Part shown: positions 1 through 30,918 of the stretch, one piece after another
How the letters are laid out: every line of letters starts with the position of its first letter
Numbering within the stretch: position 1 is the first letter of the stretch
Assembly (NCBI GenBank): GCA_003142535.1
Contig: PLMQ01000023.1
Location: 39,859 to 74,252 of the forward strand
From: Syntrophaceae bacterium
Lineage (GTDB): Bacteria; Desulfobacterota; Syntrophia; Syntrophales; Smithellaceae
Length of the DNA stretch: 34,394 nucleotides
Reading direction: 5' to 3'
Translations under genes and position numbers: made by a program
Notes under the pieces: model-generated
What the model saw: only the letters and a program-made list of their open reading frames with translations
Databases searched by the model: none
Told to the model about the DNA's origin: nothing

Positions 1-106
1 TCACAAGTCGGAATTGGCTAGTTAAATCCGCCTGCGGCGGACTACGCTATCCCGCAAAGCGGAGGGTGTAATACCCCAAAGCTTGCATTGGGGTTCATAC
101 CCGTGA
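1..106 (-). repeat. Dispersed palindromic repeat, copy 1
   Basis: The copy begins TCACAAGT at base 1 and ends ACCCGTGA at 99-106, so its two ends form an imperfect 8-bp terminal inverted repeat (6 of 8 match). Its reverse complement matches the first 58 bases of the copy inside the methyltransferase gene (6206-6263) with about six differences by eye. It is a chain of short hairpins, for example CCGCC/GGCGG and CCGC/GCGG. It may extend beyond the left window edge. No coding sequence is seen in it. Confidence 0.75.
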
Positions 107-214
107 TTTGTGTTTATTAAAATTATGCCGATTAAATGATCCGAAACATTTAGAGCTGTTTATTGATATGATTATTGGATTATAATAAAATTAGGTGAAT
201 TTCGGCAATATACT

Positions 215-1330: not shown

Positions 1331-2157
1331 CTCTTTATTTTCCCCTTCACCAATCCATCAATTTGTTTTAGTGTCGTCAGCAATTCTTCCAGAGAATCCA
1401 GATAAAGTGAGTTGGGGCCATCGCAAAGCGCTTTTTCGGGATTGCGATGAACTTCCAAAAATATTCCGTCCACACCGGCTGCCACAGCCGCCCGTGCCAG
1501 ATATGTGACCATCTCCCGCTGACCGCCGGAGGCTGTACCTGCGCCGCCGGGCAACTGCACTGCATGCGTAGCATCAAAAATCACGGGGTATCCCATATCC
1601 TTCATGATCGGCAGTGAACGCACATCAAATACCAGATTATTATAACCGAAAGATGTGCCGCGCTCGGTAATCATAATATTTTTATTCCCGGCAGATTCGG
1701 CCTTGGCGATAATATTGGCAATATCCCACGGCGCCAGAAACTGGCCCTTCTTGACATTGATCACTTTTGCCTTTTTAGCTACTTCCAAGATAAAATCTGT
1801 CTGCCGGCATAAAAATGCTGGCACTTGCACAACATCCAACACTTCTGCCGCTGCTTCAATTTCGGCAAAGCGATGTACGTCGGAAAGTAGCGGAACATTG
1901 AACTTCTTTTTTATTTGTTTTAAAAGAGCCAATCCTTCCTGTAAACCGGGCCCGCGATAAGAATTAATGGAAGTCCGGTTGGCTTTGTCATAGGACGCTT
2001 TAAAAATATAAGGGATGTTCAATTTTTCCGTGAGCTTTTTCAGATACTGGGCAATATCTTCCGCCGTCTCCTGATTTTCCAGCACACACGGTCCGGCAAT
2101 CAAAACAAAACCGGCATTATCTCCAATAACAAAGTTACTCAATGCAATTTGCTTCAT
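1327..2157 (-). CDS. kdsA: 3-deoxy-8-phosphooctulonate synthase (KDO-8-P synthase)
   Basis: KdsA condenses phosphoenolpyruvate with arabinose 5-phosphate to form KDO 8-phosphate, the committed step of KDO synthesis. The 276 residues are full length for the family. Recognisable parts are AGPCVLEN at the N-terminus, SYDKANRTSINSYRGPGLQ (the PEP/A5P-binding loop), LSDVHRFAE, QVPAFLCRQTD, and FDATHAVQLPGG near the C-terminus. The gene overlaps the upstream TPR gene by one base (TAATG) and kdsC by four, so the three are almost surely one transcript. The Cys of GPCV is a residue associated with metal-dependent KdsA enzymes in this family, which I note as an inference only. Confidence 0.96.
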   Translation of the reverse strand: MKQIALSNFVIGDNAGFVLIAGPCVLENQETAEDIAQYLKKLTEKLNIPYIFKASYDKANRTSINSYRGPGLQEGLALLKQIKKKFNVPLLSDVHRFAEIEAAAEVLDVVQVPAFLCRQTDFILEVAKKAKVINVKKGQFLAPWDIANIIAKAESAGNKNIMITERGTSFGYNNLVFDVRSLPIMKDMGYPVIFDATHAVQLPGGAGTASGGQREMVTYLARAAVAAGVDGIFLEVHRNPEKALCDGPNSLYLDSLEELLTTLKQIDGLVKGKIKR

Positions 2158-4178
2158 TATTTTTTCTCCTTATCTGTTTTTTGCGATTTCTGTTGCAAAA
2201 GGAGGATTTTTAGCTTCGGTATTCTCTTGGCCGCTCTCGGTGTTTCGGGATTAATTTCGTACGCGCTTGTATAAGCTTTGAGCGCCTCTTTATAAAGGCC
2301 TTTCTTTTCATAGGCCTCACCCAGATTGGCATATACCTCATCATCTTCCCGATCATACTTCAAAGCGATGAGATAATTATCGATAGCTTTATTCCAATCG
2401 GCACGCACTGAATATACATACCCCAAACTGGCATAAGAAGCAGCTTTTTTCGGCTCCAGCGCGATGATTTTTTTATAATATTTTATTGCCTGATCGTACT
2501 TCTTTTCTTTTAAATAATACTGCCCGAGGATAGTCAATACTCCTTTGGTGAGCGGCGATATTTTTTCGTACTCGGCAATGGAATCCTTTTCCCGGCCTAA
2601 CTTCCCATAGGTATAAGCTAAATTGTAATGCAAGTTGGAGCTTTTTCCGCCCGCTGCAATCGCCTTCTCGTAATTTTCCGCTGATGCCTTATAATTTTTC
2701 AATTCCCCATAGGCAAAACCCAAATTGGCTAAAATGGAAGAATTTTTAGGAGACAATACCAATAATTTTTCATAATATTTGATAGCCTGATCGAATTTTT
2801 TATTTTTAAAAAAAAGATCGGCCAGCCGCTTTGTAGCATCATAATCATCGGGCTTTATTTTCAAAATATGCTCGTATTCTTTAATAGCTTCTGCATCCAG
2901 TTTTCTTCTTTCATAAGCGACGCCAAGATTGAAGCGGATTGTGGGTTCATCCGGACTGAGTTCAACAGCCTTTTTTAAATTATCGAGCTCTTCCTGAAAC
3001 TTCCCTTTTCCGGCATAGGCAAAAGCTAAATTGGCATATGCAACGGCAAACTTCGGTTGATTCTTGATTACTTCCTTATAATATTTGATGGCATCATTAT
3101 ACTTTTTCGTCTTGAGATAAACGTCACCCAGAGCTATCCTGGCGGCATCCGCATTGCTGGAATGCTCAACAATATACTGGTACTGTTCAATAGCCAGATT
3201 TATTTTCTTTTTATGAACATAGGCATCTCCCAGCTTAAACCTGACCGGATAATTATCGGGATCGATTTTAACGGCCTGCAGATAACTCTCGATTGCCTGA
3301 TCCCAACGCCCTTTTTCTTCCAGAGAATATCCCAGACTGGCATAAGCTTCAACATCACGGGGGCTTATTTTAATGAGTTTTCTGGATGTCTCCATGGCAC
3401 TGTCATATTCCTTTTTTCTGATATAGCATTTGGTTAATTCGCCCAAAGCTACTGTATCATCCGGTTTGATGGCCAGAACATCATTATACTGGACGATGGC
3501 ATCATCGAACCTCCCCAACCGAAGATATATTCCGGCCAGGAGTTTGCGCACGCCTGTATCTTCCTTATTGAGGACAATTGCTTTCTTCAGGTATTCGATT
3601 TGCACTTTAACATTGGTCGAATCTTTGGCGTAACGCAGCCAATCCTGCGGTGTAATCACAACCAAAATCGGAACAGTGGCCAGTAGTTCGTTTTTGTAAT
3701 TGACAAGAATTTTGTAATCGGAATTTGTGCCAGCTCCATGATTCATTGCACCATGGAGCATTATTTTATTAACCAGATCAATACCCCGAAATAATACTCC
3801 ACGATCATTGCCGCCTTTGCCCAGAACTTCAATTTTTACAGTCATATATTTTCCTGTCAGACTATCGCTGACAACCGATTTCACCACAAACTCATCACGG
3901 TAAGTAATCTCCAGCACTTCTTCAGCGCTTGCCCGAATATCCTTGCCGTTTTTTTCCATCTCCAAATAATAAAAATGCGGTTTGGATTGTAATATATAAT
4001 AGGAAAAAGTATTTTTAACGCGATTAACCTGAAAAGAAAAAGTTTTGAGTATTTGCGGCCGGAAAAAATATATTAAAACAGAAACAAGAATAATAACAAC
4101 GGTGCACCACACCATAACCGATACAATGGCGGATCTTTCTTTGTTCTGTTTGTCGTCTCTAATGCGGCGATTTGTCAC
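2157..4178 (-). CDS. Membrane-anchored TPR-repeat protein
   Basis: A protein of about 673 residues with a short basic N-terminus, one strong transmembrane helix (AIVSVMVWCTVVIILVSVLI, about residues 18-37), a non-repeat domain to about residue 195, and then roughly fourteen tetratricopeptide repeats to near the C-terminus. The repeats show the usual spacing, such as YASLGYSLEEKGRWDQAIESY followed by x-x-x-DP. The C-terminal tail is Lys/Gln rich. The orientation is probably with repeats outside the cytoplasm, but this is not certain. I choose the GTG at 4178 because GAGGTG (4187-4182) is correctly placed for it; a GTG at 4184 would lack a ribosome site. Its position before kdsA suggests a scaffold role in envelope assembly; no specific function can be assigned. 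Confidence 0.85.
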   Translation of the reverse strand: MTNRRIRDDKQNKERSAIVSVMVWCTVVIILVSVLIYFFRPQILKTFSFQVNRVKNTFSYYILQSKPHFYYLEMEKNGKDIRASAEEVLEITYRDEFVVKSVVSDSLTGKYMTVKIEVLGKGGNDRGVLFRGIDLVNKIMLHGAMNHGAGTNSDYKILVNYKNELLATVPILVVITPQDWLRYAKDSTNVKVQIEYLKKAIVLNKEDTGVRKLLAGIYLRLGRFDDAIVQYNDVLAIKPDDTVALGELTKCYIRKKEYDSAMETSRKLIKISPRDVEAYASLGYSLEEKGRWDQAIESYLQAVKIDPDNYPVRFKLGDAYVHKKKINLAIEQYQYIVEHSSNADAARIALGDVYLKTKKYNDAIKYYKEVIKNQPKFAVAYANLAFAYAGKGKFQEELDNLKKAVELSPDEPTIRFNLGVAYERRKLDAEAIKEYEHILKIKPDDYDATKRLADLFFKNKKFDQAIKYYEKLLVLSPKNSSILANLGFAYGELKNYKASAENYEKAIAAGGKSSNLHYNLAYTYGKLGREKDSIAEYEKISPLTKGVLTILGQYYLKEKKYDQAIKYYKKIIALEPKKAASYASLGYVYSVRADWNKAIDNYLIALKYDREDDEVYANLGEAYEKKGLYKEALKAYTSAYEINPETPRAAKRIPKLKILLLQQKSQKTDKEKK

Positions 4179-4208
4179 TGTCACCTCAACAATTAATTCT
4201 TACCCGTT

Positions 4209-5690: not shown

Positions 5691-6662
5691 ATGGCGGAAG
5701 TTTTTGACAAAAAGAGAATTCGCAAAGTATTCCGCAATGTTCAAAAGCACCGGCTTATCGAGCAATTAATCCGCCAATTTTCCACCAATAAAGAAGATAT
5801 CAGAAAAAATGCCCTGCTGCCTGCGGATATATCCTCCTGTCAAAATATCCTGGAATTAGGCTGTGCTTTCGGTTCCTTTACTGAATCCTTGAAAGGCAGG
5901 CTGCACCCGGAGGCAAGAATTAACGGATGGGATATTGTCCCTGAATACAAACCTTTCTTTTTGGAAGCATGTAAACGCGCGGGATATGAGGGAACATTTT
6001 CCTCATCCGGCGTTAATAAAATCAAGAAATATCCCGCTCATTCTTTTGATTTGGTCATTTGCAGTTTCGCTTTATACTTTTTTGCCGATATGATTCCGGA
6101 GATTGCCCGTGTTTTAAAAAAAGACGGCAAATTCATCACTATCACCCATTGCCAGTCCAATATGAGAGAGCTAATTGCTATTACCAGGAGTATTCTGGAG
6201 CAAAATCACGGGTATGAACCCCAAAGCAAGCTGCGGGGTATTATACCCTCCGCTACGCGGGATTGTTCACCTTACCAATCCCGTCGTGCTGCGCACACGG
6301 TATTGGAGTTTCACAATAAATTACTCGCCGAAAATGAGCCCCTGCCCATTGAAGTTATTATCCGCCAATTTTCTGCCGAAAACGGCCGGGAACTTCTGAA
6401 TAAAAACTTCGGACAGATTATTTCCATTGATTTTAAAAACACGCTGATTTTTCAACCGCATGAAATTAATTTTTTCATCGAATACTTTCATTTTAAAAGC
6501 CCCTTTTTCCTGATTGGGACTAAGACAGATAGCAACATTATTACCACTCAACTTGTCCATAAGCTGCAAGGCATTGCGGCTAAGGAAAAAGTCATCAACA
6601 TGTGTAAGGATGATCGAATTTTCATTTGCTCTGACCCTTTTCCGACAAAGGAGCAAACATGA
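5691..6662 (+). CDS. Class I SAM-dependent methyltransferase with in-frame repeat insertion
   Basis: A 323-residue Rossmann-fold methyltransferase. Motif I is [11 protein letters not shown] (residues 53-63), the acidic end of strand 2 is Asp81 in GWDIVPEY, and motif IV is [13 protein letters not shown] (119-131), followed by the helix and strand [12 protein letters not shown]. It resembles BioC-like and general Methyltransf_11 enzymes; the substrate is unknown. Residues 173-208 are not of the family type: they are the translation of a dispersed palindromic repeat (6206-6314). Removing 105 bases between the two TCAC flanks would restore a continuous 288-residue frame reading [11 protein letters not shown]. 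The stop overlaps the next gene's start (ATGA), so the two are coupled. Whether the enzyme is still active is unknown; the frame is intact after the insert. Confidence 0.85.
6206..6314 (+). repeat. Dispersed palindromic repeat, copy 2, inside a reading frame
   Basis: The copy runs from TCACGGGTATG (6206) to GGAGTTTCAC (ends 6314). The first 58 bases match copy 1 at about 90 percent by eye. The right half is a palindrome around 6274-6306 (accaat-cccg / cacacgg-tattgg), and the last ten bases recur in copies 4 and 5. The distance between its two TCAC flanks is 105 bases, exactly 35 codons, so the host frame stays open. The inserted peptide starts [11 protein letters not shown] and ends HTVLEF. 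Confidence 0.85.
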
Positions 6663-19283: not shown

Positions 19284-19356
19284 TCACGGGCTTATGACCT
19301 CTCGCCACCTTCAGGTGGTTAGGTTATACGCTTCGCTTGCGAGATTGGAGTTTCAC
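19284..19356 (+). repeat. Dispersed palindromic repeat, copy 5, supplying the hydG ribosome site
   Basis: The copy starts TCACGGG directly after the hydF stop and ends GGAGTTTCAC two bases before the hydG ATG. Its last 52 bases (19305-19356) match copy 4 (30833-30884) with about five differences by eye. It contains the hairpin CCACC-ttca-GGTGG (19305-19318). The GGAG at 19347-19350, eight bases from the ATG, is the only Shine-Dalgarno candidate for hydG, so the repeat provides the ribosome binding site. Confidence 0.75.
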
Positions 19357-19358
19357 TA

Positions 19359-20756
19359 ATGAACAAAGATTTTATCATTGATGAACAAATAGAAAAGCTG
19401 CTCGCTTGCGCTATCGCGCCGGATAAAAGCAGAGTCCTCGAAATTATCGCCAAAGCCGAAAAGCTCAAAGGCCTTACTCCCGAAGAAACAGCAGTGCTTT
19501 TACAAACCGAAGATGAAGAACTAATCGAGATAATCTCGCATACAGCACGAAAGATCAAAGAGGCTATTTACGGCAACCGTCTTGTTATCTTTGCTCCGCT
19601 TTATATCGCCAATCTCTGCGCTAATAATTGCCTTTACTGCGGATTCCGCCGCGACAATAAAGAACTTCAGCGCGTAGCTTTAAGCATGGAACAAATTGCC
19701 AACGAAGTGCGTGTTCTGGAACGCGAAGGCCACAAGAGGCTTCTGATGCTTTGCGGTGAGCACCCTACCCGTTCCAGCCTTGATTATTTTATGGAGGCAA
19801 TTGAAACAGCTTATGCCGTAAAAACAGAACACGGCGGCGAGATTCGCCGGATTAATGTCGAGGTTGCTCCGCTCGAAGTCGAAGAGTTCAAGCGTTTAAA
19901 GAAAACAGGCATCGGAACTTATGTCTTATTTCAGGAAACATATCATCATGCAACTTATAAAACGATGCACCCCAGCGGCCCCAAGAAAGATTTTGCCTGG
20001 CGGCTTACAGCCATGCACCGCGCGCAGGAAGGCGGAATTAATGACGTCGGCATCGGCGCTCTCTTCGGACTTTATGATTACAAATTTGAAGTTTTAGGTT
20101 TACTTACCCACGCGCTGCAACTGGAAAAAGATTGCGGTATCGGCCCACATACTATTTCCATCCCCCGGCTGGAACCGGCCTTTAATGCTCCTGCCGCCAT
20201 CAAACCGCCGCATCCGGTCAGCGATCATGATTTCAAAAAACTCGTCGCCATCATCCGCCTGGCCGTTCCCTATACGGGCATGATTCTGTCCACGCGGGAA
20301 ACAGCCGCTATCCGCAGAGAAGTGTTTGAATTGGGCGTCTCGCAAATCAGCGCCGGGTCGCGCACGAATCCCGGCGGATATCAGCAGGATTCCAGTGAGG
20401 CTTTCCGCGCTGCGCAATTTAATCTCGGCGATACCAGAACTCCGGATGAAGTAATTATGGATATCAGCACACATGGGCATATCCCCAGTTTCTGTACCGC
20501 CTGCTACAGGCTGGGACGCACAGGAAAAGATTTTATGGAATTAGCCAAACCCGGATTAATTCAGAAATTCTGTCAGACTAATGCCCTTTTCACGTTCAAG
20601 GAATACCTGATGGATTACGCGAGCCCCGCCACACGCAAGATCGGTGAAAAGTTGATTAACCAAACCGTGGAAGATAAATTTAAACCCCGAATGAAAAAAT
20701 CAATTCTTACCCGCCTGCAGAGTATTGAAGAAGGCAAACGAGATGTCTATATCTAA
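19359..20756 (+). CDS. hydG: [FeFe] hydrogenase maturase, tyrosine lyase
   Basis: HydG is a radical SAM enzyme that cleaves tyrosine to p-cresol plus dehydroglycine and from the latter makes the CO and CN ligands of the H-cluster on its auxiliary cluster. The 465 residues show the radical SAM motif Cys87-x3-Cys91-x2-Cys94 (CANNCLYC) and the C-terminal auxiliary-cluster motif Cys379-x2-Cys382-x22-Cys405, which separates HydG from the thiamine enzyme ThiH. The following TRDE-type strands (GEHPTR, NVEVAPLE, YVLFQETYH) are typical. It overlaps hydE by 14 bases. The order aspA-hydF-hydG-hydE identifies the maturation operon. Confidence 0.96.
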   Translation: MNKDFIIDEQIEKLLACAIAPDKSRVLEIIAKAEKLKGLTPEETAVLLQTEDEELIEIISHTARKIKEAIYGNRLVIFAPLYIANLCANNCLYCGFRRDNKELQRVALSMEQIANEVRVLEREGHKRLLMLCGEHPTRSSLDYFMEAIETAYAVKTEHGGEIRRINVEVAPLEVEEFKRLKKTGIGTYVLFQETYHHATYKTMHPSGPKKDFAWRLTAMHRAQEGGINDVGIGALFGLYDYKFEVLGLLTHALQLEKDCGIGPHTISIPRLEPAFNAPAAIKPPHPVSDHDFKKLVAIIRLAVPYTGMILSTRETAAIRREVFELGVSQISAGSRTNPGGYQQDSSEAFRAAQFNLGDTRTPDEVIMDISTHGHIPSFCTACYRLGRTGKDFMELAKPGLIQKFCQTNALFTFKEYLMDYASPATRKIGEKLINQTVEDKFKPRMKKSILTRLQSIEEGKRDVYI

Positions 20757-24100: not shown

Positions 24101-24263
24101 TCACAAGTCGGAATTGGTAAGTTGTAATGAGTCCCACGCTTCAGAAACAAAGTGTACTGAAGCCTGTAGGACGAATTATCCCGCCTGAGAAGCAAGGCGG
24201 GGAACAATCCCGCGCAGCGGAGGGTAAATACCCCAAAGCAAGTCTTAGGGTATTTACCCGTGG
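24101..24263 (-). repeat. Dispersed palindromic repeat, copy 3
   Basis: It begins TCACAAGTCGGAATTGG, identical to the first 17 bases of copy 1, and ends in ACCCGTGG. Read on the minus strand it has the core TTTACCCTCCGC-tgc-GCGGGATTGTT, nearly the same as in copy 2 (6245-6266). It is longer than copy 1 because an extra hairpin block is inserted (CTTCAG...CTGAAG and CCGCCT...AGGCGG). No frame of note is present. Confidence 0.75.
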
Positions 24264-24371
24264 TTTCCGGTTCTGCTTACCGTTGCGTCAAGTTATGATA
24301 TGCCTTTCTAATTGACAAATTCACTCTCTTTAACTAAAGTTAAAAAGATATAAGCATTCATAAATATAAAC

Positions 24372-29774: not shown

Positions 29775-30578
29775 ATGAAAAATACTATATATATCTACAC
29801 AGGAACAGGCAATTCCCTATGGACTGCCCGGAAATTGGGAGAAAAATTAGATAATACGGAATTGATTCCCATCACTCTTGCCGGGAGCGGGTCAATTCAT
29901 TCCGAGTCACAAAGAGTTGGCCTAATATTTCCCGTTCATATCTGGGGTATTCCTGATCCGGTAATTGATTTCATCAATCGTTGGCAAACAGATCCCGCAA
30001 AATATTACTTTGCTCTGGCCGTCAATGCCGGACAGGTTGCCGCCACTCTGCTCCAACTCAAAGACCTGCTGAAGCAGCGGGGAGCAATTCTCTCTGCGGG
30101 ATTTTCTATTAGTTTGCCCAGCAATTACATTCCCTGGGGCGGTGCATTTTCCGAGGAAAAGCAGCAGGCAAGATTCACAGAATCACTCAAAAAAATTAAT
30201 CTAATCGCGAAATCTATTCTTGCTAATGAGGTTCTTCCGCCGGAGCGCGGACCATTATGGCAGAATTTTATTCTTTCAGCACTTTATCGCTTATCTGCTG
30301 CTCATGTTCCGAAAATGGATAAGTCGTTTTGGGCTGATGATAAATGCACCGGATGCAATATCTGCGAAAAAATATGCCCTGCTCAAAATATCAGTATATC
30401 GCATAGCAAGCCTGCCTGGCATCATCACTGCCAGCAGTGTTTCGCCTGTCTGCAGTGGTGCCCGGAAGAAGCAATACAATATGGTAAAAATACTGCAAAA
30501 AAGAAACGCTATCATCATCCGGAAATTAAGTTAGCTGATATGCTCGCCTGTATATCAAAAAATCAATCACAGGTATGA
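29775..30578 (+). CDS. Flavodoxin-ferredoxin fusion (EFR1 family)
   Basis: A 267-residue soluble electron-transfer protein. The N-terminal flavodoxin fold has the phosphate-binding loop YTGTGNSLWTA (residues 8-18) and IFPVHIWGIPDPV. The C-terminal part has two [4Fe-4S] sites: Cys191, 194, 197, 201 (CTGCNICEKICP) and Cys219, 222, 225, 229 (CQQCFACLQWCP). This is the EFR1-type arrangement of FMN plus two clusters, which lets the protein take one-electron and two-electron steps. Its natural partners are unknown, but a ferredoxin pool is also used by the hydrogenase. The final codons and stop (tca cag gta tga) lie in repeat copy 4, so the native C-terminus was probably altered by the insertion. 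The upstream ribosome site is weak. Confidence 0.88.
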   Translation: MKNTIYIYTGTGNSLWTARKLGEKLDNTELIPITLAGSGSIHSESQRVGLIFPVHIWGIPDPVIDFINRWQTDPAKYYFALAVNAGQVAATLLQLKDLLKQRGAILSAGFSISLPSNYIPWGGAFSEEKQQARFTESLKKINLIAKSILANEVLPPERGPLWQNFILSALYRLSAAHVPKMDKSFWADDKCTGCNICEKICPAQNISISHSKPAWHHHCQQCFACLQWCPEEAIQYGKNTAKKKRYHHPEIKLADMLACISKNQSQV

Positions 30579-30884
30579 ACCCCAAAGCGAGCTTTGGAAA
30601 CCGATTCCAAAGCTCGCTGCAGTGTATTATAGCACTGTTTATACAGTATAATTCGGCTAACAAACTTCTATTCGCTTCGCCCTGCATGCGCCGGGCTTCG
30701 CTTTTGAAGCTTCAATCTCATTACCCTTCACTGCGCGGGATTGCGTAGTCCGCCACAGGCGGATTCAACTTGCCAATTCCAACTTGTGACCTTTAGGTTA
30801 CTTGTGACCTTTAGATCACTTGTGACCTCTTGCCACCTTTAGGTGGTTAGGTTATACGCTACGCTTTCGGAATTGGAGTTTCAC
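30567..30884 (+). repeat. Dispersed palindromic repeat, copy 4 (composite)
   Basis: The copy starts TCACAGGTATGAACCCCAAAG, near-identical to copy 2, and carries the core CACTGCGCGGGATTG and CCGCCACAGGCGG. It then has an end like copy 1 (CCAATTCCAACTTGTGA), a short 18-bp tandem block and an end like copy 5 (30833-30884). It seems built from two or more units. It fills the 340-bp gap between the flavodoxin-ferredoxin gene and the amidase; I see no gene in that gap. Confidence 0.7.
30782..30830 (+). repeat. 18-bp tandem repeat inside copy 4
   Basis: ACTTGTGACCTTTAGGTT (30782-30799), ACTTGTGACCTTTAGATC (30800-30817) and ACTTGTGACCTCTTGCCA (30818-30835) follow head to tail with growing differences. 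ACTTGTGA is the same as the right end of copies 1 and 3 in the same orientation, so it may mark repeated insertion or slippage at the element end. Confidence 0.7.
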
Positions 30885-30918
30885 GAATAAAAGAGCATTA
30901 TACTGGATGTGTCCTGCG

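Follow-up and report, generated by a model that had tools for sequence, protein, structure and literature searches.

The window, i.e., the whole stretch of 34,394 nucleotides analyzed here, corresponds to C57:39859-74252 in the genome of a Syntrophaceae bacterium (G000; 2.93 Mb in 70 contigs). It contains a methyltransferase gene, the first ~168 residues of which match methyltransferases in Pfam (N-terminal part), and the reading frame stays open across a repeat flanked by a pair of TCAC motifs (6206-6209 and 6311-6314), just as described in an earlier note made from the sequence alone. The note was also right about frame neutrality, but its figure of 105 bp (35 codons) covers no more than what the pair of TCAC copies encloses; the insert measures 111 bp, or 37 codons, and separates the methyltransferase core from the C-terminal part. 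The size was established because the closest homologue (L069, from genome G128, 77% identity) keeps the empty site, an uninterrupted CTGGAGCAAAATAAATTG where the window gene reads CTGGAGCAAAATCACGGG...GTTTCACAATAAATTA. Given that there is AA on both sides, the placement is ambiguous by 1 to 2 nt, and the one in Table 1 was chosen by analogy with the junction of the DsbA copy described below. Of 149 genomes in the same order, 76 have a homologue (E < 1e-20). As the note had expected, the alignment of the close homologues listed breaks at query residue ~172 and picks up at ~209, and in every homologue compared at the residue level, Syntrophaceae records included, 37 residues are missing at the insert. 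Sequence comparison demonstrated that the segment is an insertion of a dispersed element into an intact gene. An AlphaFold model of the protein, built from five sequences, had a pLDDT of 37, too low for use, and a PDB sequence search meant to place the insert in the fold gave only weak methyltransferase matches, within residues 40 to 155. Most likely, the added peptide is tolerated rather than useful.

Table 1. Features of the methyltransferase locus, element copies in the window, and in-frame copies elsewhere in the genome (window positions, or contig:position)
Feature	Position	Strand	Basis
Methyltransferase ORF, 323 aa, interrupted in frame	5691..6662	+	Pfam match, homologue alignments
Inserted element copy, 111 bp, ATCAC...TTTCACA	6205..6315	+	L069 empty site, 37-residue gap in homologues
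Left subterminal hairpin GGGTATGAACCCC...GGGGTATTATACCC	6210..6248	+	Fold
Small middle hairpin CCGCTACGCGG	6250..6260	+	Fold
Right subterminal hairpin CCAATCCC...GGTATTGG	6275..6306	+	Fold; paired arm changes in other copies
Target motif ATAA beside right end (bottom strand TTAT)	6316..6319	+	L069 empty site; conserved flank of 58 exact right ends
Element copy cut by the window edge	1..108	-	
Short element copy between two genes; GGAG 10 nt before ATG at 19359	19284..19358	+	
Intergenic element copy with variant right end CCAATTCCGACTTGTGA	24101..24271	-	
Long composite element copy; gives ORF 29775-30578 its TGA stop	30565..30889	+	
In-frame copy, NRDE protein	C55:11657		Clean gap of ~41 residues in each of four relatives
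In-frame copy, DsbA/FrnE-like protein	C25:70237		Clean gap of ~37 residues in each of four relatives
In-frame copy, HPr-kinase-like P-loop protein	C57:33738		Clean gap of ~70 residues in each of four relatives
In-frame copy, ComEC	C12:85086		Clean gap of ~46 residues in each of four relatives
In-frame copy, 5'-nucleotidase signal peptide	C21:24953		Poor alignment with relatives

The element has the ends ATCAC (left) and TTTCAC (right), with no terminal inverted repeats except for the short TCAC motif, itself in direct orientation. Subterminal hairpins are present near both ends, and the methyltransferase insert folds into left, middle, and right hairpins with a z of -3.2 as DNA and -3.4 as RNA. 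Paired changes between the arms of the right hairpin, seen in other copies that were preselected for pairing, are indicative only. The units measure ~71 bp when in tandem and reach >300 bp where modules such as GACCTTTAGGTTA are added. Right ends paired exactly 70 to 71 bp apart (C5:33972/34043, C7:7805/7876, C12:35736/35807, and others) correspond to head-to-tail dimers, the short unit of which starts with (N)ACCACCGC. At 1-23 and 24101-24123 of the window, the variant right end stands in place of GGAATTGGAGTTTCAC, and some copies elsewhere in the genome (e.g., C21:40401 and a reverse-strand copy at C7:110017) contain NN gaps, with lengths that are nominal. The window also holds 26-nt repeats of another location, within ORF 2157-4184 (2477-2502, 2774-2799, and 3080-3105, ~300-bp spacing), perhaps repeated protein units.

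The 12-nt right end TTGGAGTTTCAC was found in 185 copies in the 2.93-Mb genome, the reversed pattern in only 1. In a 1.2-Mb sample covering 41% of the genome, profile models for the two ends detected 159 left and 148 right ends, compared with 0 in the reversed sequence. These merge into 133 intervals, or roughly 320 by extrapolation to the whole genome. Up to 81, 51, 40, and 37 right ends occur in other genomes of its taxonomic family and only 0 to 3 in those outside it, i.e., high copy numbers are confined to one bacterial family, with the placement of the carriers resting on named records of relatives (Syntrophaceae). In the literature searched, we found no papers on repeats in Syntrophus or Syntrophales, a weak sign of novelty.

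The flanks of the copies are asymmetric. On the left they are random right up to AATCAC; on the right most copies have (N)AATAA, with A at +2 in all 58 exact right ends. Besides the methyltransferase gene, empty sites were recovered for a gene-end copy (C7:23700, against three relatives), an intergenic one (C21:40401, against G092), the one in front of rpiB in L031 (against L033), and the DsbA copy (the homologues have AAATATAAAATCG). Target duplications of 2 to 8 bp were searched for at several offsets in 53 left/right pairs and none was found; flank bases are not duplicated at any of the offsets and lengths tested (z < 1.8). Taken alone, the window copy is compatible with a short AT or AA duplication, having the same bases on both sides, and 1 to 2 nt stay ambiguous at single copies. 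Read on the bottom strand, the layout is TTAT | T(N)GTGAAACTCC-hairpin ... hairpin-CCCGTGAT |. The insertion sequences IS200/IS605 follow the same rules: they lack inverted repeats, do not duplicate their target, and insert 3' of a tetra- or pentanucleotide (PMC7290912). Their derivatives consisting only of the ends are termed PATEs (PMC7290912). Since the lack of target duplication, the insertion beside ATAA/TTAT, and the subterminal hairpins match IS200/IS605 (Y1) geometry, we consider a PATE-like reading the most likely. The family would probably be a high-copy, nonautonomous mobile element with subterminal hairpins, inserted beside ATAA by single-strand transposition of the IS200/IS605 type; the geometry is seen in the copies themselves, and the enzyme is what we infer from it.

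A MITE with a DDE transposase as its mobilizer and a 2- to 3-bp (AT or AAT) target duplication, as in ERIC, NEMIS, or RUP, appears unlikely. AT/AAT does occur on both sides of the window copy and of C7:23700 and only a single time in the empty site, and the junction dinucleotides match in most tandem pairs. However, the left and right flanks of the 53 pairs are uncorrelated beyond the shared consensus, and copies with right flanks AACAAA, TAAAAA, or AAGAAA still have AATCAC at the left, as does the L031/L033 case, in which the target is AAAA. The direct orientation of TCAC and the missing terminal inverted repeats also argue against such a MITE.

As for the mobilizing enzyme, no transposase gene with the element ends was found in G000 or in seven other genomes of the family (all drafts), and no autonomous copy lay between matching ends in the 1.2-Mb sample. 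The Y1 transposases of those seven genomes were considered as a source and rejected, their loci having no matching ends. TnpB was not found in G000, which codes for three Y1-type, RAYT-like proteins, one of them above the NCBIfam RAYT cut-off. That gene (L148, C57:20304-20975) has an element copy ~30 bp downstream, which would fit a REP-type element moved by it. Yet the sequence flanking the RAYT and its orthologues (L149 and L150) is a small palindrome of a different kind, GGGACAGCGCCC, which probably represents the REP family of this RAYT, and we rejected the protein as mobilizer. Moreover, G092 has an orthologue with 72% identity and no exact right end, G121 lacks a RAYT match but carries 37 right ends, and the element lacks the GTAG or CGTC tag, all of which makes a RAYT of G000 very improbable as the driving enzyme. 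A second Y1-type protein (L066, C1:4332-4658) is flanked by yet another palindrome, GAACAAGGGGTTGCAACCCCTTGTTC. Returning to single-strand transposition of the IS200/IS605 type, the element would have entered the intact methyltransferase gene directly beside ATAA, on the bottom strand 3' of TTAT and with no target duplication, through a Y1 transposase acting in trans that would be either absent from G000 or not recognized in it. By its length and stop-free frame, the insert added 37 residues without breaking the gene, and copies within genes would persist if frame neutral, the others being removed by selection.

The methyltransferase is not the only protein affected. As the earlier note had predicted for the same genome, more in-frame copies exist, in five further, unrelated genes within the 1.2-Mb sample (Table 1; protein names are our reading of their sequences, not database matches), i.e., six genes in 41% of the genome. 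Relatives show clean gaps for five of the six, methyltransferase included, and the copies add roughly 37 to 70 foreign residues per protein. Two of the six are antisense and four sense, and at least three frames of the element are used. Only one in-gene copy is clearly disrupting (C7:113740-113855), breaking a HepT-like gene out of frame. For full single copies, ~4.7% of the element/frame combinations are both stop free and frame neutral, compared with six of seven in-gene copies in frame (binomial, ~7e-8, bearing in mind that broken genes are harder to recognize). Using simple in-house gene calls, 79.5% of the AATAA motifs are gene interior versus ~5% of the element intervals. These counts point to strong removal of the elements from genes by selection, and from the depletion together with the excess of in-frame survivors we infer that frame-neutral copies stayed in genes and others were lost. 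The same data bear on two other explanations. The open frame and the conserved flanking protein would fit a variable loop native to the methyltransferase, but the DNA of the 37 residues belongs to a dispersed family found mostly outside genes and they are present in no aligned homologue (nor did we see a native peptide with divergent DNA, the case that the note had named as contrary to its proposal), which leaves this idea with hardly any credibility. An assembly artifact, conceivable in a genome in 70 contigs with NN gaps in some copies, is just as implausible, because misjoins would connect different genes and the copies in the methyltransferase, NRDE, DsbA, HPr-kinase-like, and ComEC genes each have both flanks in one gene, collinear with relatives.

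Many copies are located at the ends of genes. A long frame (≥80 codons) runs into 17 of 59 well-formed left ends, and in 10 of these it stops three codons in, with Ser-Arg-Val-stop or a close variant; at these 10 gene ends the element sits on the stop codon and provides TGA. In the window, the copy at 30565 overlaps the last ~14 bases of ORF 29775-30578 (30565-30578); the remaining related copies in the window are intergenic. Further stop-supplying copies were observed on contigs C5, C7, C12, C21, C25, and C55. Stop codons make up 2% of AATAA sites, and the enrichment (p ~3e-7 against all sites) becomes borderline, with p 0.06, when selection against gene interiors is allowed for. GTAG REPs also donate stop codons to flanking ORFs (PMC3733652). 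On the other side, a start codon lies ≤14 nt from 8 of 85 right ends. The short copy within 19284-19360 ends in GGAGTTTCACTA directly before the ATG of ORF 19359-20756, and the GGAG of the element may serve as a ribosome-binding site for the next gene, as at 19359. The stop-free frames in both orientations, the AATAA target (which can contain a stop), the element's own TGA after Ser-Arg-Val, and the GGAG end could be read as a family of IS200/IS605 type adapted to live at or inside genes, steadily adding peptides to its host, some kept for function, but we find this quite doubtful.

Several known repeats share part of this behavior. The note named in-frame palindromes in Rickettsia and Wolbachia, but they are not limited to these: other bacteria are reported to have intragenic repeats of the ERIC and NEMIS types as well as GTAG/CGTC REPs (PMC2229807, PMC3733652). 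RPEs are short (~100 to 150 bp), hairpin-forming repeats that occur in gaps and also within genes, where they extend unrelated conserved proteins in frame (PMC10969869, PMC2229807), as does our hairpin-rich element in six genes. In contrast, the host lineage is different and the sequence probably so, the element uses at least three frames and both orientations, and it inserts beside ATAA without target duplication; RPEs have been tabled with 12-bp terminal inverted repeats (PMC2229807). The ERIC/IRU and Correia/NEMIS MITEs (~100 to 150 bp) also have contiguous open frames fused in frame to genes (PMC2229807), like the element, but they have terminal inverted repeats and TA termini and duplicate their target (PMC2229807), and no such feature was seen here. 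With GTAG/CGTC REPs it has in common the high copy number, hairpins, some intragenic copies, and stop donation by the termini (PMC3733652). However, REPs are palindromes of 20 to 40 bp with an unpaired GTAG or CGTC tag next to a RAYT gene flanked by the same repeat, whereas these units measure 71 to >300 bp, have two or more hairpins and no such tag, and the RAYT orthologues are beside another palindrome. PATEs come closest, consisting of ends only, with subterminal palindromes, no inverted repeats or target duplication, and insertion 3' of a short motif (PMC7290912); accordingly, the element has no target duplication, a fixed motif on one side with a random flank on the other, and hairpins at both ends. 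It differs in its hundreds of copies, modular internal parts, and in-frame residence in genes, and no parental IS with a tnpA bearing the same ends was found among the draft genomes searched. By these features, PATE-like IS200/IS605 derivatives seem to be the nearest mechanistic class, parental IS aside. With RPEs and with intragenic ERIC, NEMIS, and REP repeats, the likeness is one of behavior. In-frame intragenic repeats are already known (RPE, ERIC, and REP), but this element family and its lineage appear to be new.

In-frame palindromic insertions are best known in Rickettsia, with only sparse reports from other bacteria. The present genome, which belongs to an anaerobic lineage distant from Rickettsia, has six of them in the 41% sampled. 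For five, relatives show clean empty sites, and the insertions link the in-frame insertion of peptides to single-strand, probably IS200/IS605-like, transposition. For annotation, proteins with such inserts pass for diverged or fused variants. The element family represents a natural experiment on the tolerance of proteins to inserted peptides.
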